Assembly (NCBI GenBank): GCA_014859225.1
Contig: JACUUP010000051.1
Span: 1 to 9,310, forward strand
DNA length: 9,310 bases
DNA from: Candidatus Aerophobota bacterium
GTDB lineage: Bacteria; Aerophobota; Aerophobia; Aerophobales; B3-G15
Direction of reading: 5' to 3'
Below the pieces are notes generated by a model. That model was not told where the DNA came from. It did no database searches and saw only the letters and a program-made list of their open reading frames with translations. Below, piece after piece: positions 2,869 to 9,310 of the stretch (position 1 is its first letter; each line of letters starts with the position of its first letter). Position numbers and translations under genes: made by a program.

Positions 2869-4992
2869 ATGCTAACAACAGATGATATTATTGCATTAGT
2901 TATGGCTAAATCACGATTAAAAAAACTTACTTTCCCGCCTGTAAGATTAGATCACGTAGACCACATTGTTCAAATGAGCCTGGCAGGTGCTCCTCAATTA
3001 GCAGCAGACCACATCCTTCATGCCAAAATGAGAGGAAAGCTGCAAAAAATAGTAGGAAGTGTCATTCGTCAGTTAAATTTTGAATTCATGAGAAATGAGA
3101 TAACTCAGGCAGACTCAGGGGAGCTTCTCAGGAAGAAAATTCAGCAGCGGGGATTTTCTTACTGGACACTTATAGAAATAGCCATGAACCTGGTAGGGAT
3201 GGAAGCTAAGATGCTCAGGTTCTTTCCTGAGGAGATAGATGCTACCTACAAGTTTATTCTGGAAACTCTTGTTAGGTGGGAGCACATAGAAAAAAAAGAA
3301 AAAGATAGCCCTGTTGCTCGGGCAATAGTGAGGATGCTCATTGAAGATATGAAAAAGGTGATGGGAGGAGCTGGTATGGTAGCGAGGATGGGAAAGGAAA
3401 TTGAAGAAAAACTTGACAAAGATAAGCTTACAACAAGCTTTGTTTTGCAGGCAAAGTGCATATTCCAGAAAAATGTATATTATCAAATGGTAAAAGAGGG
3501 GCTGGGCAAGTTTGGCAACGACTATGCTATTGGCCTAAGGTATCTTAGGCACTTAGGGTATGTTCAGGTCTCTACCAACCCGGTGCTTGCGGCAAGAGCC
3601 TATGAGGATGATGCGGAGCTCTGGGAAGATTTTAAAGAGGTGGTTACAGCTCATCCTGAGTGGCAAAAAAATCCAGAAAACTTTGCTGATGAGATTGCCA
3701 TGGAAGCAACCAAAACTGCCCTGTGGCCAAATCTTGTTATTTTCAGACCTATTTTCCTGGCCTCCAATTTCCAGGATGGAATGGTAAGCTACCAGCTCAA
3801 TCCCAACGTGGCAGATAATCTTGAAGGTAGCCTGAGGGATGCCTTAGAGATTTATTCCTCTGCCCAGGAGTTTCTCCGAAATTATGATTCCAAGCTTCTG
3901 TGGGGCTACTCCAATTTAGAGGAAAGGAAAAGACCTAATATTGTATTTAAAGTTGCAGGAGGATACCCTGCCTCTATTGAAATCACCAAAAAGCTAAATA
4001 CCATAGGAATAGGAACTAATAATACCGTTACCTACAGCGTATCTCAAGAGGTCAGTCTTATCATTGCTGCCATGGAAGGAATGGCAGCTTCTCTGAAGAT
4101 GGGAATACCAGTTACCCAGGTCTATGAGACCAATATGGGTGGAAGACTTGAAAGTCATTTAAGGGAAGTAGAGGCGGAAAAACTTCTTTTTAAGGCTATG
4201 GATAAGGTTAATGTCCGGGAAATAATTTTAAACAGGCTCGCCCAAAAGCTCGGTGCAACCGAAGAGCTTAAAAAAACTTCTTCTCTGGAGGAAAAACTTA
4301 AGATGTTAACCTCCTACAACTATTTGAAGTCCTTAACTAACCAGGACTTTGTTCAAGTCATTGCTGATGCCAGAGGCGATGAGTGCTTCAAAAATGATAC
4401 CTTTTCTTTCCTCAGGAATCTGGAAAATGATATAGGATATGCCGGCACCTTCGTCGCCCAGAGAGTCTACACAATTTTCTTCAGTCAAAAGAACAAAGCT
4501 ATATGGTTAAGTTATTTAGAGAAGCAGTTTGGTCTCACAAAAACTCAGGCAGAAAACATCATGGATAAGATAGATGTGCTTCCGGCTTCCAAGAGAAAAC
4601 CAGATGATACCTATTTGACCTTAGCAACGAAGAATATGACCAACACCGAGTTTCCCAATCATCAACAAAGTGTCCTTGAGACTTACTTAAAGAAAGAGCT
4701 GAACTTACAAGATTTTAAAGATGCCATTTTAAAAGACCACAACCCGCAGATTAGAAAAAACCTGCTCAGGTTGCCAGATTTCCGAAAGGCATACGAGCTT
4801 ACCCCTGAACTTACAGAACAACTTACCAAAGTGGGAATTAAAGATGATTTTGGTACGGGTGGTCTTAAGGTAGAAGAGTGGTCCAGCTTTGGGCCAGTGG
4901 TAAAGACGATGAATGAGTTCACCTGTGCATACAATAATTTTAGAGAAAGAACTATTGAATTTGTGCACCAAATTAACAGAAGTTCCTCTTAG
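2869..4992 (+). CDS. Large transaldolase-family protein of unknown substrate
   Basis: A 707-residue protein, about twice the length of an ordinary transaldolase. Residues 1 to about 220 form a helical extension I do not recognise. From there a class I transaldolase barrel can be followed in order: VSTNP (234-238), DGMVSYQLNP (303-312), the Schiff-base lysine K361 in FKVAGGYPAS, N384 and T386 in the strand ending VTYS, GGRLESH (424-430), AGTFVAQRVY (525-534), and a DVLPAS...NTEFPN stretch (569-597) that matches the WAST...NTMP region of the actinobacterial-type enzyme. Around VSYQLNP the glutamate conserved in transaldolases appears as Q309, and the Asp after the GR pair is E428. The Lys, Asn and Thr are kept, so aldol chemistry is plausible but may differ. 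It is coupled to uxaE, so it probably serves the same sugar-acid or cyclitol pathway. The family call comes from remembered motifs; the reaction is unknown. Confidence 0.75.
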   Translation: MLTTDDIIALVMAKSRLKKLTFPPVRLDHVDHIVQMSLAGAPQLAADHILHAKMRGKLQKIVGSVIRQLNFEFMRNEITQADSGELLRKKIQQRGFSYWTLIEIAMNLVGMEAKMLRFFPEEIDATYKFILETLVRWEHIEKKEKDSPVARAIVRMLIEDMKKVMGGAGMVARMGKEIEEKLDKDKLTTSFVLQAKCIFQKNVYYQMVKEGLGKFGNDYAIGLRYLRHLGYVQVSTNPVLAARAYEDDAELWEDFKEVVTAHPEWQKNPENFADEIAMEATKTALWPNLVIFRPIFLASNFQDGMVSYQLNPNVADNLEGSLRDALEIYSSAQEFLRNYDSKLLWGYSNLEERKRPNIVFKVAGGYPASIEITKKLNTIGIGTNNTVTYSVSQEVSLIIAAMEGMAASLKMGIPVTQVYETNMGGRLESHLREVEAEKLLFKAMDKVNVREIILNRLAQKLGATEELKKTSSLEEKLKMLTSYNYLKSLTNQDFVQVIADARGDECFKNDTFSFLRNLENDIGYAGTFVAQRVYTIFFSQKNKAIWLSYLEKQFGLTKTQAENIMDKIDVLPASKRKPDDTYLTLATKNMTNTEFPNHQQSVLETYLKKELNLQDFKDAILKDHNPQIRKNLLRLPDFRKAYELTPELTEQLTKVGIKDDFGTGGLKVEEWSSFGPVVKTMNEFTCAYNNFRERTIEFVHQINRSSS

Positions 4993-5254: not shown

Positions 5255-6814
5255 ATGGGAAAATTTTTTATCACAACACCTGTTTACTATGTGAATGATG
5301 TTCCCCATCTGGGGCACGCCTATACTACTATTGCTGCTGATACCTTGAGTAGATACAGAAGACTTTTGGGGGATGAGGTTTTCTTTTTAACCGGCACAGA
5401 TGAGCACGGTAGTAAAATTCTCCAGGCAGCAAGACAAAAAAACATCTCTCCTCAAAAGCTTGCAGATGAGATGACTGCAAGATTTAAGAATCTGTGGGAA
5501 AAACTTTCCATCTCCTATTCTGATTTTATCCGAACAACTGACCAAAAACACATAAAAGTTGTGCAAAATGTTTTTTCCCGGCTTCACGAAAAAGGTGACA
5601 TATATAAAGGAAAATACAGTGGATGGTACTGTGTTCCCTGTGAGAGCTTCTGGCTTGAGTCTCAATTAAAAGATAAAAAGTTTTGCCCGGAGTGCAAGAG
5701 AGAGACAGTAAAACTTGAGGAGGACAGCTATTTTTTCTCTCTTTCTAAATATCAAAAACCTCTGCTTGATTATTACAATGAAAATCCTGATTTTGTGCTT
5801 CCATCTACGAGGAAAAACGAGGTGGTGGAGTTTGTTAAAAGAGGATTAAGGGACATCAGTGTAACCCGTTTGAATCTGGAGTGGGGCATTCCCTGTCCTG
5901 TGGATGAGCAGCACAGCATATATGTTTGGGTGGACGCTTTAATTAATTACATCTCTGCTCTTGGATATTCACTGGAGGAGGAAAGATTTTTTACCTTCTG
6001 GCCGGCAGATGTTCATCTTGTGGGTAAAGATATTTTGAAATTTCACGCAATTATCTGGCCTGCCTTGCTTATGGCAATTGGCATAAAGCTACCCGGGATG
6101 GTTTTTGCTCATGGATGGTGGATGATAAAAGGGGAAAAGATGTCAAAATCCAGAAAGAATGTAGTTGAGCCGGAGTGGATAATAGATAGATTTGGGTCAG
6201 ATTATCTCAGGTACTTTCTTCTGCGTGAAGTTCCTTTTGGAGAGGATGGAAATTTTTCCCCGGCTCTTTTTGTTAAAAGGGTAAATAGTGACCTGGCTAA
6301 CGACCTTGGTAATCTGCTTAATCGGACTTTGACCCTTGTTGTGAAGCACTTTCAGGCAAAAGTTCCCCGGCCAGGGAAAATAAATGCTCAGGATGATGAA
6401 CTTAAAGGAAAAATAGATTCACTTCCTGACAACCTGCAAAACTTTATGGATAGGCTTTCCTTTTCTCAGGCTTTTGATTCAATCTGGGAGGTGGTTAGAG
6501 GTGCCAACCTTTATCTTGACCGATGTGCTCCCTGGAGACTGGTAAAAAAAGGGGAAACAGAAAGAATGGGCAGCGTTCTTTACAATGTGCTTGAGATAAT
6601 AAGGATATTGACAGTAGTTCTTTTCCCCTTTATCCCGCGGGGAGCTGAGAAAATGTGGAAACAGCTGGGGATGGAGGATATTCTATCAGAACAAAAGCTG
6701 AAGGATGCAGTTAAATGGGGAAAACTTCCTTTCGCTCTGGAAGTTAAAAAGCCTGAGCCGGTTTTTCCCCGCATAAAAGAAGAAGATTTTTATGAAGTTG
6801 AAAGAGAAACTTGA
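5255..6814 (+). CDS. metG: Methionine--tRNA ligase (methionyl-tRNA synthetase), short form
   Basis: Charges tRNA-Met with methionine using ATP in the cytoplasm; essential for translation. The class I Rossmann fold opens with TTPVYYVNDVPHLGHAY, with the HIGH box as HLGH (18-21), and the KMSKS loop is exact at 295-299. The knuckle insert carries two CxxC pairs, C126/C129 and C144/C147, so a zinc-binding form is expected. The anticodon-binding helical domain occupies about 350-500, and the protein ends soon after the FPRI motif. At 519 residues it lacks the C-terminal tRNA-binding (EMAP/Arc1p-like) dimerisation domain found in many bacterial MetG proteins of about 630-680 residues. The ATG has an AAGGAA site four bases upstream. 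It is the first gene of a housekeeping operon and overlaps ksgA by 23 bases. Confidence 0.98.
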   Translation: MGKFFITTPVYYVNDVPHLGHAYTTIAADTLSRYRRLLGDEVFFLTGTDEHGSKILQAARQKNISPQKLADEMTARFKNLWEKLSISYSDFIRTTDQKHIKVVQNVFSRLHEKGDIYKGKYSGWYCVPCESFWLESQLKDKKFCPECKRETVKLEEDSYFFSLSKYQKPLLDYYNENPDFVLPSTRKNEVVEFVKRGLRDISVTRLNLEWGIPCPVDEQHSIYVWVDALINYISALGYSLEEERFFTFWPADVHLVGKDILKFHAIIWPALLMAIGIKLPGMVFAHGWWMIKGEKMSKSRKNVVEPEWIIDRFGSDYLRYFLLREVPFGEDGNFSPALFVKRVNSDLANDLGNLLNRTLTLVVKHFQAKVPRPGKINAQDDELKGKIDSLPDNLQNFMDRLSFSQAFDSIWEVVRGANLYLDRCAPWRLVKKGETERMGSVLYNVLEIIRILTVVLFPFIPRGAEKMWKQLGMEDILSEQKLKDAVKWGKLPFALEVKKPEPVFPRIKEEDFYEVERET

Positions 6815-7658
6815 ACACCTTATGGCAGTGTATAACCTTTGCCCCAGAGCATCTCTTTCTCAAAATTTCCTGATTGATGCAAGATGTGTGTCTCGCCTGA
6901 TAGAGGAGATTGGGCTTGAGGAAAAAGACATTGTATTAGAAATTGGTGCGGGAACAGGGATTTTAACCTCACATCTTCTACAGAAGGCAGGTAGAGTCTT
7001 TGCCGTGGAGATAGATGAGAGTCTTTGTAAGGTTATGAGAGATGAACTTAAGGGAAAGAGCAACCTGAAGATACTATGTGGGGATATTACGAAGCTTGCT
7101 CTTGACAGCTTATTTTTAGAAGAGGATAGTGTCAAGGTCGTGGGTAATCTACCTTATCATATTGCTTCCCGCATAATTCTGGAACTTGTCAGAAAAAAAT
7201 GGTGGGAACTGATGGTTTTTACCATTCAGCGAGAAGTTGCCGATAAGCTTTTGTCTTGCCCCGGAAAAAAAACAAGAGGAGCCTTAAGCGTGATTGTATC
7301 TTATTATACTGATGTCAAAAAGGTTATGGATATCCCGCCTCAGGCTTTCTATCCTGCTCCCAGAGTAACATCTACGGTGGTTAAAATTGAAGCAAAAAAG
7401 AAAAAACTTGTGGCAGAAGATGAGAAGTTTTTTCTTGATGTAGTGAAGGCAAGCTTTACCGCTCGCAGAAAGACTTTACTTAACTGCCTGAGCAGAGGGC
7501 TAAGCCTATCGCGTGAGGTTGCCAGAGATATTTTAATAAAATCAAAAGTCCCGGAGAAAAAAAGAGCAGAAGAGCTTGAGGTAGAGGATTTTATCAGAAT
7601 AAGTAATGTGCTCTTGAGGAAGAAGGGGAGAGGAAAAATTGCCCATCAATCCGATTGA
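6792..7658 (+). CDS. ksgA: 16S rRNA (adenine1518-N6/adenine1519-N6)-dimethyltransferase
   Basis: Also called RsmA. It dimethylates two adjacent adenines in the 3'-terminal hairpin of 16S rRNA, using S-adenosylmethionine, as a late step in 30S assembly. Of 288 residues, the Rossmann domain shows motif I EIGAGTG (50-56), the acidic AVEID (71-75), GDIT (98-101, D99) and the catalytic NLPY (119-122). The later blocks QREVA (146-150), FYPAPRV (186-192) and FTARRKTLLN (222-231) are all kept. The N-terminal box usually written SLGQNFL reads SLSQNFL (21-27), a Gly to Ser change. The ATG at 6792 lies inside metG; it gives the family's usual lead-in before that box, and an internal ATG at 6822 would trim it. 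The end overlaps mtnA by 20 bases, so translation is probably coupled through the operon. Confidence 0.98.
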   Translation: MKLKEKLEHLMAVYNLCPRASLSQNFLIDARCVSRLIEEIGLEEKDIVLEIGAGTGILTSHLLQKAGRVFAVEIDESLCKVMRDELKGKSNLKILCGDITKLALDSLFLEEDSVKVVGNLPYHIASRIILELVRKKWWELMVFTIQREVADKLLSCPGKKTRGALSVIVSYYTDVKKVMDIPPQAFYPAPRVTSTVVKIEAKKKKLVAEDEKFFLDVVKASFTARRKTLLNCLSRGLSLSREVARDILIKSKVPEKKRAEELEVEDFIRISNVLLRKKGRGKIAHQSD

Positions 7659-8679
7659 GTGGGAAAATAACAGGATAAAAATAATTGACCAGACACAGCT
7701 TCCCCATAAGCTCAAGTTTCTCTACCTGGATAGTATTGAGAAAGTTAAAGATGCTATTTGCAAAATGAAAGTAAGGGGAGCACCTGCCTTAGGAGTTGCC
7801 GCAGCTTTTGGAGTTGTGGTAGGAGTACAGGATTCAACTTCCAGGGATTTTAACCAGTTTAAGAGGGAGGTGGAGGGAGTTTGCAGATTCCTTCGCTCAT
7901 CAAGACCAACTGCTGTCAATCTTTCCTGGGCACTTGACAGAATGTACAGGGTTGTTGTAAATAATGCCGAGTTTAGCCTGGACAAAATAAAACAAAAGCT
8001 TGCAGAAGAGGCTCTTTGCATTATGGAAGAGGACAGGCAGTGCAACAGGGCTATAGGAGAAAAAGGTGCCTCGCTTATCAATGACGGGGATACGGTGTTA
8101 ACTCACTGTAATGCTGGAGTGTTGGCTACAGCAGGGTATGGAACAGCACTATCCATTATTTACCAGGCTAAGAATGAGGGTAAAAAAGTAAAGGTTTATG
8201 TGGATGAAACAAGACCTCTTCTTCAAGGCTCACGCCTAACTTGCTGGGAGCTTTTAAGGGAAGCAATTGAGGTTACACTTATATGTGACAGCGTAGCAGG
8301 GGAGTTGATGAGAGAGGGGAAAATAAACAAGGTGGTAGTCGGGGCAGATAGAGTTGTGGCAAATGGGGATGCGGCAAACAAAATAGGGACATATTCTCTT
8401 TCTGTTCTGGCAAAGGAAAACAAGGTTGCCTTTTATGTTGCCTGTCCCTTATCCACAATTGACCTATCCATAGCTTCAGGGGATGAAATACCCATAGAGA
8501 TAAGAAGTGATGAGGAAGTTACAACCTTTTGCGGTAGAAGATGTGCACCTGAAGGGGTGGATGTTTATAATCCAGCTTTTGATATTACCCCCTCCCGATA
8601 TATCTCAGCCATAATTACCGAGAGGGGGATTTGCCGAGCTCCCTATGAGGAGAGTCTACGCATAATTTTTGGAGGATAA
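7639..8679 (+). CDS. mtnA: S-methyl-5-thioribose-1-phosphate isomerase
   Basis: Converts 5-methylthioribose 1-phosphate to 5-methylthioribulose 1-phosphate in the methionine salvage pathway, or in shunts that dispose of methylthioadenosine. Of 346 residues, it belongs to the eIF2B-like isomerase family. Visible motifs are VRGAPALG (45-52), SRPTAVNLSWAL (88-99), THCNAG (155-160) with catalytic C157, GADR (235-238) with catalytic D237, and NKIGTY (247-252). Both catalytic residues mark it as a true isomerase rather than an eIF2B regulatory subunit. It starts with TTG at 7639 inside the end of ksgA, preceded by the purine-rich GGGGAGAGG at 7625-7633. No other methionine salvage gene is in the window. 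A ribose-1-phosphate isomerase role, known for some relatives, is a less likely alternative. Confidence 0.95.
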   Translation: MPINPIEWENNRIKIIDQTQLPHKLKFLYLDSIEKVKDAICKMKVRGAPALGVAAAFGVVVGVQDSTSRDFNQFKREVEGVCRFLRSSRPTAVNLSWALDRMYRVVVNNAEFSLDKIKQKLAEEALCIMEEDRQCNRAIGEKGASLINDGDTVLTHCNAGVLATAGYGTALSIIYQAKNEGKKVKVYVDETRPLLQGSRLTCWELLREAIEVTLICDSVAGELMREGKINKVVVGADRVVANGDAANKIGTYSLSVLAKENKVAFYVACPLSTIDLSIASGDEIPIEIRSDEEVTTFCGRRCAPEGVDVYNPAFDITPSRYISAIITERGICRAPYEESLRIIFGG

Positions 8680-8981: not shown

Positions 8982-9310
8982 ATAATTTTGTTTGTTTTCC
9001 CCCTATGAAAAATATAAGGCTACATAAAGCACAGGTATACAGCAGGGATGGATACAGGGAATCTGTGAAGGTTGGTATAAGAGGAAGCTGGTGAAATAGC
9101 AAAAGCCATGAAGCGGTGACAAAATTGTTAATTAAAAAAGCTATTCCCACCATGAGGGTAAAAAATACAACATTTTGCTGATATATTCTACTTTTTGCCT
9201 CACTTATCAAAAAGCCTATCAAAGATAAAGAGAACGCGTTAATTCCAACTACTGGAAAAAATACAACATTTTGCTGATATATTCTACTTTTTGCCTCACT
9301 TATCAAAAAG
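8965..9310 (-). CDS. mreD: C-terminal part of an MreD-like membrane protein, cut by the window edge
   Basis: An open frame enters from the right edge and stops at 8965, overlapping the end of gatC by 17 bases tail to tail. The product is strongly hydrophobic, with few charges. From the stretch GINAFSLSLIGF (encoded about 9211-9246) it goes through a short basic loop, EAKSRIYQQN, into a membrane segment (FFTLMVGIAFLINNF) and a last one (LYTCALCSLIFFIGG), ending in a short polar tail. This order resembles the second half of rod-shape protein MreD, a subunit of the elongasome that guides cell wall synthesis. The first 17 residues from the edge duplicate the EAKSRIYQQN segment and probably do not belong there (see the repeat entries). 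The call rests on pattern and hydropathy; another small membrane protein is possible. Genes further upstream, such as mreC, would lie beyond the edge. Confidence 0.5.
   Translation of the reverse strand, partial: FLISEAKSRIYQQNVVFFPVVGINAFSLSLIGFLISEAKSRIYQQNVVFFTLMVGIAFLINNFVTASWLLLFHQLPLIPTFTDSLYPSLLYTCALCSLIFFIGGKQTKLSIPQS
9160..9214. repeat. 55-base direct repeat, inner copy
   Basis: Identical base for base to 9256-9310, with a 96-base period (32 codons, so in frame on the - strand). On that strand it encodes the LISEAKSRIYQQNVVFF segment. This copy sits in a natural-looking MreD context on both sides and is probably the original. Confidence 0.97.
9256..9310. repeat. 55-base direct repeat, outer copy at the window edge
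   Basis: A perfect copy of 9160-9214 that ends exactly on the last base of the window. The 41-base spacer (9215-9255) is not clearly repeated before the inner copy, so this is not a clean tandem array. A perfect repeat of common assembler word length at the very end of a sequence suggests an assembly loop; a true local duplication is the alternative. Confidence 0.95.

Follow-up and report, generated by a model that had tools for sequence, protein, structure and literature searches.

The inositol route of Bacillus includes IolJ, a zinc-dependent class II 5-dehydro-2-deoxy-6-phosphogluconate aldolase that splits a phosphorylated deoxy substrate into DHAP and malonate semialdehyde. The Thermotoga inositol/hexuronate network comprises IolG, IolM, IolN, IolO, and UxaE; T. 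maritima also has a UxuA-family protein and continues towards KDG. Two reactions of hexuronate conversion are described as epimerizations: a C4 epimerase converts 5-keto-L-gluconate to D-tagaturonate (PMC12632266), and UxaE works by retro-aldol cleavage followed by re-addition, changing a single centre so that D-tagaturonate and D-fructuronate are converted into each other (PMC11194214). Among transaldolase-fold enzymes, the catalytic water of fructose-6-phosphate aldolase (FSA/TalC) is held by Gln59, Thr109, and Tyr131, and swapping the residues at these positions between FSA and E. coli transaldolase (TalB) switches aldolase into transaldolase activity and vice versa (PMC13259622, citing Stellmacher et al.). 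Sulfofructose (SF) transaldolase works through a Schiff base to convert SF and GAP to sulfolactaldehyde (SLA), which is released, and F6P (PMC12890257). A search of the open-access literature returned no described fructuronate aldolase.

Here we describe a transaldolase-like gene of an Aerophobota bacterium located directly behind uxaE. The window, i.e., the whole stretch of 9310 nucleotides analysed, is one contig of a 1.8 Mb draft genome, and its first three genes lie in the same direction and in the following order, with one signal at the last junction:

106–1221, + strand: iolN-like gene (creatininase fold; 3-dehydro-scyllo-inosose hydrolase), NCBIfam NF041098 at 298.9 bits against a curated cut-off of 245, also matched by Pfam Creatininase
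1354–2868, + strand: uxaE, tagaturonate/fructuronate 3-epimerase, Pfam PF16257 at 619 bits against a cut-off of 27
2856–2862, + strand: AGGAGGT ribosome-binding site of the transaldolase-like gene, within the end of uxaE, read directly from the sequence
2869–4992, + strand: 707-residue transaldolase-fold protein, proposed D-fructuronate aldolase, from the open reading frame, a Pfam match, and the predicted structure

The bounds of the third reading frame are exact and its start codon is ATG, and the frame of the iolN-like gene is open up to base 1. The uxaE stop codon (2866–2868) abuts the ATG of the transaldolase-like gene, and AGGAGGT lies about six bases upstream of it, an arrangement like that of a translated operon. 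Downstream, a 260-base gap is followed by the housekeeping genes metG, rsmA, mtnA, and gatC. No RNA element was found in the window, and promoter and terminator scans of it performed no better than on shuffles. The window ends in a perfect 55-bp direct repeat (9160–9214 and 9256–9310, spaced by 96 bp), possibly an assembly break at a repeat.

The first-pass annotation had described the protein as a 707-residue transaldolase relative and had suggested a distinct subfamily, and both points are supported. Pfam TAL_FSA matches it at 48.3 bits (cut-off 27), and an AlphaFold2 model built from 46 sequences (pLDDT 94.0, pTM 0.93; pLDDT 84 when built from nine) shows all eight barrel strands (214–217, 231–236, 305–309, 358–363, 383–388, 418–422, 568–572, and 590–594). 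This model aligns with the transaldolases (EC 2.2.1.2) of Neisseria (Z 32.5, 333 residues, 2.5 Å), Corynebacterium (Z 31.4), and E. coli (TalB, Z 27.2), with the sulfofructose transaldolase SqvA (BmSF-TAL, Z 17.9), and with FSA (Z 16.7, FSA being smaller); for the transaldolases, the match spans residues 200–700 at 12–19% identity. Similarity to characterised transaldolases is only marginal in profile comparisons, and the protein falls far below the cut-offs of all curated transaldolase/FSA models (best NCBIfam score 37.6 bits against 367). Members of its own subfamily are 40–67% identical to it, including homologues from the same order (65–67%; the one at 65% is recorded as Candidatus Aerophobetes) and archaeal homologues (46–52%) recorded as Bathyarchaeota, Thermoprotei, Thermoproteales, and Thermofilaceae. 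A profile search of 398 Thermoproteota genomes, this being the phylum of the host of one archaeal homologue, found the ~700-residue family in 52. The protein thus belongs to a strongly conserved, uncharacterised group of ~700-residue transaldolase-family proteins that an Aerophobota bacterium shares with many archaea. An unrooted maximum-likelihood tree of 46 sequences unites the three bacterial proteins in a single clade (100/100) beside archaeal groups, and it is plausible that the bacterial copies were acquired by transfer from archaea.

Two additions to the barrel further set this branch apart:

2869–3468, + strand: N-terminal all-helical domain, residues 1–200, conserved in the family, without a Pfam match (predicted structure, Pfam search)
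4156–4569, + strand: residues 430–567, connecting strands 6 and 7 and exceeding the TalB counterpart by ~100 residues, from the predicted strand positions and the length of TalB

An N-terminal helical extension had been noted before at about 220 residues; it is present and all-helical, but closer to 200 residues long, as the alignment to transaldolases begins at residue 200–202. The insertion of ~100 residues between strands 6 and 7 is absent from that earlier description. Two other similarities were dismissed as chance: an N-terminal phmmer match to HPPK (E 0.014), given that residues 1–211 alone have no Pfam match and the family profile misses HPPK, and a helical match to Pfam DASH_Dad3 at residues 467–543 that lies below the cut-off (19.9 bits against 23.1).

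The active-site positions were assigned as follows:

3520–3522, + strand: D218, counterpart of TalB D17 and FSA D6, assigned from its place at the end of strand 1 in the model
3577–3579, + strand: N237 of the TNP motif, counterpart of TalB N35
3793–3795, + strand: Q309, at TalB E96 (profile alignment) and FSA Q59
3799–3801, + strand: N311, an Asp in the 400-residue paralogues
3949–3951, + strand: K361, Schiff-base lysine, at TalB K132 (profile alignment)
4018–4026, + strand: N384 and T386, at TalB N154 and T156 (profile alignment)
4135–4137, + strand: M423, at the position of TalB F178 and FSA Y131, from an alignment anchored on R426 and strand 6
4144–4146, + strand: R426, at the position of TalB R181 and FSA R134, candidate carboxylate or phosphate contact

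All of these residues, together with T421, are invariant in 46/46 homologues. The first-pass annotation had read K361 as the Schiff-base lysine, N237 and the N384/T386 pair as retained, and Q309 and N311 as substitutions of an active-site Glu and the following Asp, and these assignments agree with the alignment and the model: Q309 ends strand 3, K361 lies in strand 4, and N384 and T386 lie in strand 5. Judged at the level of strand position, the model would place K361 in the barrel pocket. The Gln is also fixed among homologues, as the same annotation had suggested checking, and the invariance in 46 of 46 sequences rules out a recent or local mutation, a sequencing error, or chance. What does not fully stand is the reading of this Gln as a sign of altered chemistry. 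It is fixed and differs from TalB, but FSA provides a precedent, so that Q309 hints at an aldolase rather than at new chemistry. Two paralogues of the same genome also have Gln here.

A second substitution had been overlooked. When the strand 6 motif ETNMGGR is aligned through R426 with the corresponding motifs of TalB (SPFVGR) and FSA (APYVNR), M423 falls at the F178/Y131 position, an assignment that we infer from strand and motif and that an alignment with a 400-residue paralogue supports. On these alignments, it is the pair of Gln and Met that is unprecedented, with neither of the known acid-base residues (TalB Glu, FSA Tyr) in place. The protein therefore resembles both described groups in part. 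With the transaldolases it shares the fold and counterparts of Lys132, Asn154, Thr156, Asp17, Asn35, and Arg181, yet it differs in the Gln at Glu96, the Met at Phe178, the helical N-terminus, and the insertion. With FSA/TalC it shares the Gln at Gln59, T386 at Thr109, the Schiff-base Lys, and counterparts of Asp6 and Asn28, yet the catalytic Tyr131 is replaced by Met, the profile alignment is weak, and 707 residues compare with ~220 in FSA, which forms a decamer. Taken together, sequence and model place it as a novel variant inside the transaldolase/FSA superfamily, with a predicted activity.

The pair of Gln and Met also occurs, with the Arg, in shorter TAL_FSA proteins of the same order, two of 400 residues and one of 591 (QLDP or QVNP, xMxxR), and thus marks a wider branch of which the 707-residue family is one member. 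Most of the 591-residue type (L007) can be aligned with the 707-residue protein, and the alignment takes in part of the N-terminal domain. These shorter proteins have different neighbours (Zn-alcohol dehydrogenase, FGGY kinase, GntR regulator). Both 400-residue paralogues (L001:1303-2499 and L008:967-2175) come from the genome of the window, carry QLDP and xMxxR motifs, adjoin an FGGY kinase and a zinc alcohol dehydrogenase, and are likely to be aldolases of related specificity.

Next, we considered how the ~700-residue family is distributed relative to UxaE and related genes. The UxaE family was detected in 37 of the 398 archaeal genomes, 34 of which also carry the ~700-residue protein (4.8 expected; Fisher p = 1.4e-32, a value that overstates the independence of cases because the genomes are related to one another). 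The association is nevertheless seen repeatedly, in widely separated branches of the tree as well as in bacteria, and in about ten archaeal genomes no more than ~12 kb separates the two genes. Many archaeal UxaE matches do not reach beyond the central part of the model (73–108 bits), and their specificity may differ. Conversely, UxaE was not detected in 18 of 52 carriers. In archaeal locus L081, the order is ABC transporter, IolG-like, IolM (545.7 bits, cut-off 450), IolN (302, cut-off 245), IolO-like (270.6, cut-off 300), ~700-residue gene, UxaE, 2-hydroxyacid dehydrogenase, and a second TIM-barrel epimerase-like gene. Archaeal locus L077 resembles it, with a hydroxyacid dehydrogenase that scores as glyoxylate reductase (600.4, cut-off 455), and a bacterial relative (G011) has IolM, a second zinc dehydrogenase, IolN, and UxaE in a row. 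The upstream enzymes of the Thermotoga network are found in clusters with this family, and unlike T. maritima, most carriers lack the mannonate dehydratase UxuA, which normally takes over after fructuronate and mannonate: PF03786 was missing in 51 of 56 carriers, including the genome of the window, with no bacterium among the other 5, although this model leaves out enolase-type mannonate dehydratases and absences from draft genomes are soft.

Genes for possible downstream steps were also evaluated. Glycerate 2-kinase adjoins the ~700-residue gene in one locus (L101), is nearby in four others (L089, L091, L093, L094), and is encoded by 55/56 carriers versus 16/24 non-carriers (p = 2e-4); hydroxypyruvate reductase-type genes occur in about ten clusters with the ~700-residue gene. 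One locus (L090) has DhaL and DhaK ~7 kb from it, and a GH2 glycosidase and a distant relative of glucuronate isomerase are also in the vicinity. DhaK was detected in 3 of 52 archaeal and none of 3 bacterial carriers, and was rejected as a general pathway marker (p = 0.07). UxaC (PF02614) exceeded its cut-off in no more than 3 of 56 carriers and in no bacterium, which argues against glucuronate isomerase as a general entry. IolN-like proteins above 200 bits are found in 29/56 carriers versus 1/24 non-carriers (p = 3e-5), suggesting that inositol is the commoner source.

On the basis of these sequences and the model, we tentatively propose, giving it a little less than an even chance, that the 707-residue protein works as a class I (Schiff-base) aldolase of transaldolase fold with a ketohexuronate as its substrate, in all likelihood D-fructuronate, which it would cleave to dihydroxyacetone (DHA) and tartronate semialdehyde. 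UxaE would flip one centre of D-tagaturonate, derived from inositol or galacturonate, to yield D-fructuronate, whose C3/C4 configuration is the D-threo arrangement of fructose, i.e., the one found at the bond that transaldolase-fold enzymes break. K361 would form an imine at the keto group, retro-aldol cleavage would break the C3–C4 bond (ketose numbering) with departure of tartronate semialdehyde, and a water held by Q309 and T386 would hydrolyse the K361 adduct to free DHA. Reduction of tartronate semialdehyde, or of the isomeric hydroxypyruvate, would yield glycerate, from which glycerate 2-kinase would make 2-phosphoglycerate, and DHA would pass to DhaKL, glycerol dehydrogenase, or another kinase; in this host, a glycerol-dehydrogenase-like gene and an FGGY kinase beside a second iolN copy could take it up. 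Such an enzyme would fill the same pathway role as IolJ, converting a C6 ketoacid from inositol to a triose and a C3 semialdehyde, but it would differ from the zinc-dependent class II IolJ, whose deoxy substrate is phosphorylated.

Several observations count in favour of a fructuronate aldolase, namely the fold and the mapped residues, the FSA-like pairing of Gln with Thr, the operon with uxaE and iolN, the co-occurrence with UxaE, the iol clusters, the absence of UxuA, and the fact that the retro-aldol step of UxaE cleaves the same bond. The linked glycerate kinase and hydroxypyruvate reductase genes suggest that a C3 acid leaves the pathway, with the qualification that glycerate kinase is also common in archaea that lack the ~700-residue gene. 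Against the proposal count the rarity of DhaK, which leaves no obvious sink for free DHA in most genomes, the carriers without detectable UxaE, and the other contexts of some relatives (Fae-Hps, pyrimidine genes, ribosomal operon). A further point against it is that neither the TalB Glu nor the FSA Tyr is present as an acid-base group.

The main rival is a transfer of DHA to an acceptor, i.e., a true transaldolase with fructuronate as donor, in which K361-bound DHA would pass to GAP (or E4P) to give F6P (or S7P) and tartronate semialdehyde. SqvA is a functional model for such a reaction, as it acts on a C6-anionic, non-phosphorylated ketose and transfers to GAP (PMC12890257); SqvA itself is an FSA-size decamer with a sulfonate substrate and no uxaE linkage. 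This reading would require no DHA kinase, consistent with most carriers lacking one, R426 is kept at the phosphate-binding position, and the top structural matches are transaldolases (Z 27–32, versus 17–18 for FSA-size proteins, partly a length effect). However, a Gln in place of the Glu is the aldolase state of FSA, a DHA kinase pair is present in one cluster (L090), and the site would have to hold two polar acceptors, so that we consider a fructuronate transaldolase unlikely. More doubtful still is an ordinary sugar-phosphate transaldolase or fructose-6-phosphate aldolase with a pentose phosphate role, located near uxaE by chance. It would fit the six archaeal carriers checked in which this is the sole TAL_FSA protein, and the FGGY kinases scoring near xylulokinase that flank some copies, but the co-occurrence with UxaE is much stronger than this would allow, neither the Glu nor the Phe/Tyr is retained, the host has two further TAL_FSA genes, and G011 encodes a normal 310-residue transaldolase. 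Gene context thus disfavours the pentose phosphate role. Scarcely different in probability, and also improbable, is an enzyme with another outcome on ketouronates, either a retro-aldol/re-addition epimerase, a mechanism used by UxaE, or an aldolase for another inositol-route intermediate: several TIM-barrel epimerase-like genes share the clusters, but IolO-like and UxaE proteins already cover the epimerase steps, and a C3 product is to be expected from the linked glycerate kinase and hydroxypyruvate reductase. Finally, a relative that lacks catalysis and serves a structural or regulatory purpose would explain why both known acid-base residues are missing, but is very improbable given that the Schiff-base lysine and its whole first shell (D218, N237, Q309, N384, T386, T421, and R426) do not vary among 46 sequences with identities as low as 40%.

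A D-fructuronate aldolase (or fructuronate:GAP transaldolase) would be an undescribed activity and, by a judgement that we regard as evenly balanced, would define a non-phosphorylated cleavage branch in Thermoproteota and Aerophobota that degrades inositol and hexuronates without passing through mannonate, KDG, or KDPG and yields DHA (or F6P) and glycerate, the enzyme having Gln and Met where both known acid-base residues would be. If so, it would supply the missing step after UxaE in fructuronate-making genomes without UxuA, and a defined end point for the degradation of inositol and uronic acids in uncultured archaea. The family, by fixing a third combination, would also offer a natural test of the roles of Glu/Gln and Phe/Tyr in the transaldolase site, and a thermostable aldolase for a carboxylated ketose could be of practical use in C–C bond synthesis.

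The remaining neighbourhoods are varied. A second cluster of the host (L132:65-18921) contains an iolN copy 69% identical to that of the window, an FGGY kinase, sugar ABC transporter genes, a glycerol-dehydrogenase-like gene (382.8 bits, cut-off 336), and an SDR that scores as D-mannonate oxidoreductase, from which a reductive branch may coexist; two ATPase genes of this cluster are each present in two copies that agree in length and start (5486-7754 and 16653-18921). In six archaeal loci (L089, L091, L093, L094, L079, and L092), the ~700-residue gene is flanked by genes (cluster c8) with starts like those of uroporphyrinogen-decarboxylase-type methyltransferases, joined in L092 by a corrinoid-protein-like gene, and such flanks could possibly serve O-demethylation of methylated uronates. 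Five Bathyarchaeota-type loci (L010, L064, L065, L066, and L015) have the gene beside a Gfo/Idh dehydrogenase, a TIM-barrel isomerase-like gene, and a fused formaldehyde-activating enzyme/hexulose-6-phosphate synthase. A ~310-residue xylose-isomerase-like TIM-barrel protein, with no good match among curated models, recurs beside UxaE and/or the ~700-residue gene (L077, L081, L090, L092, L095, L099, L101, and L124), and is a candidate for a second pathway step, e.g., tartronate semialdehyde/hydroxypyruvate isomerisation. In one archaeon, a radical SAM protein with an intein-splicing domain (L091:12724-14229) is encoded near the ~700-residue gene.
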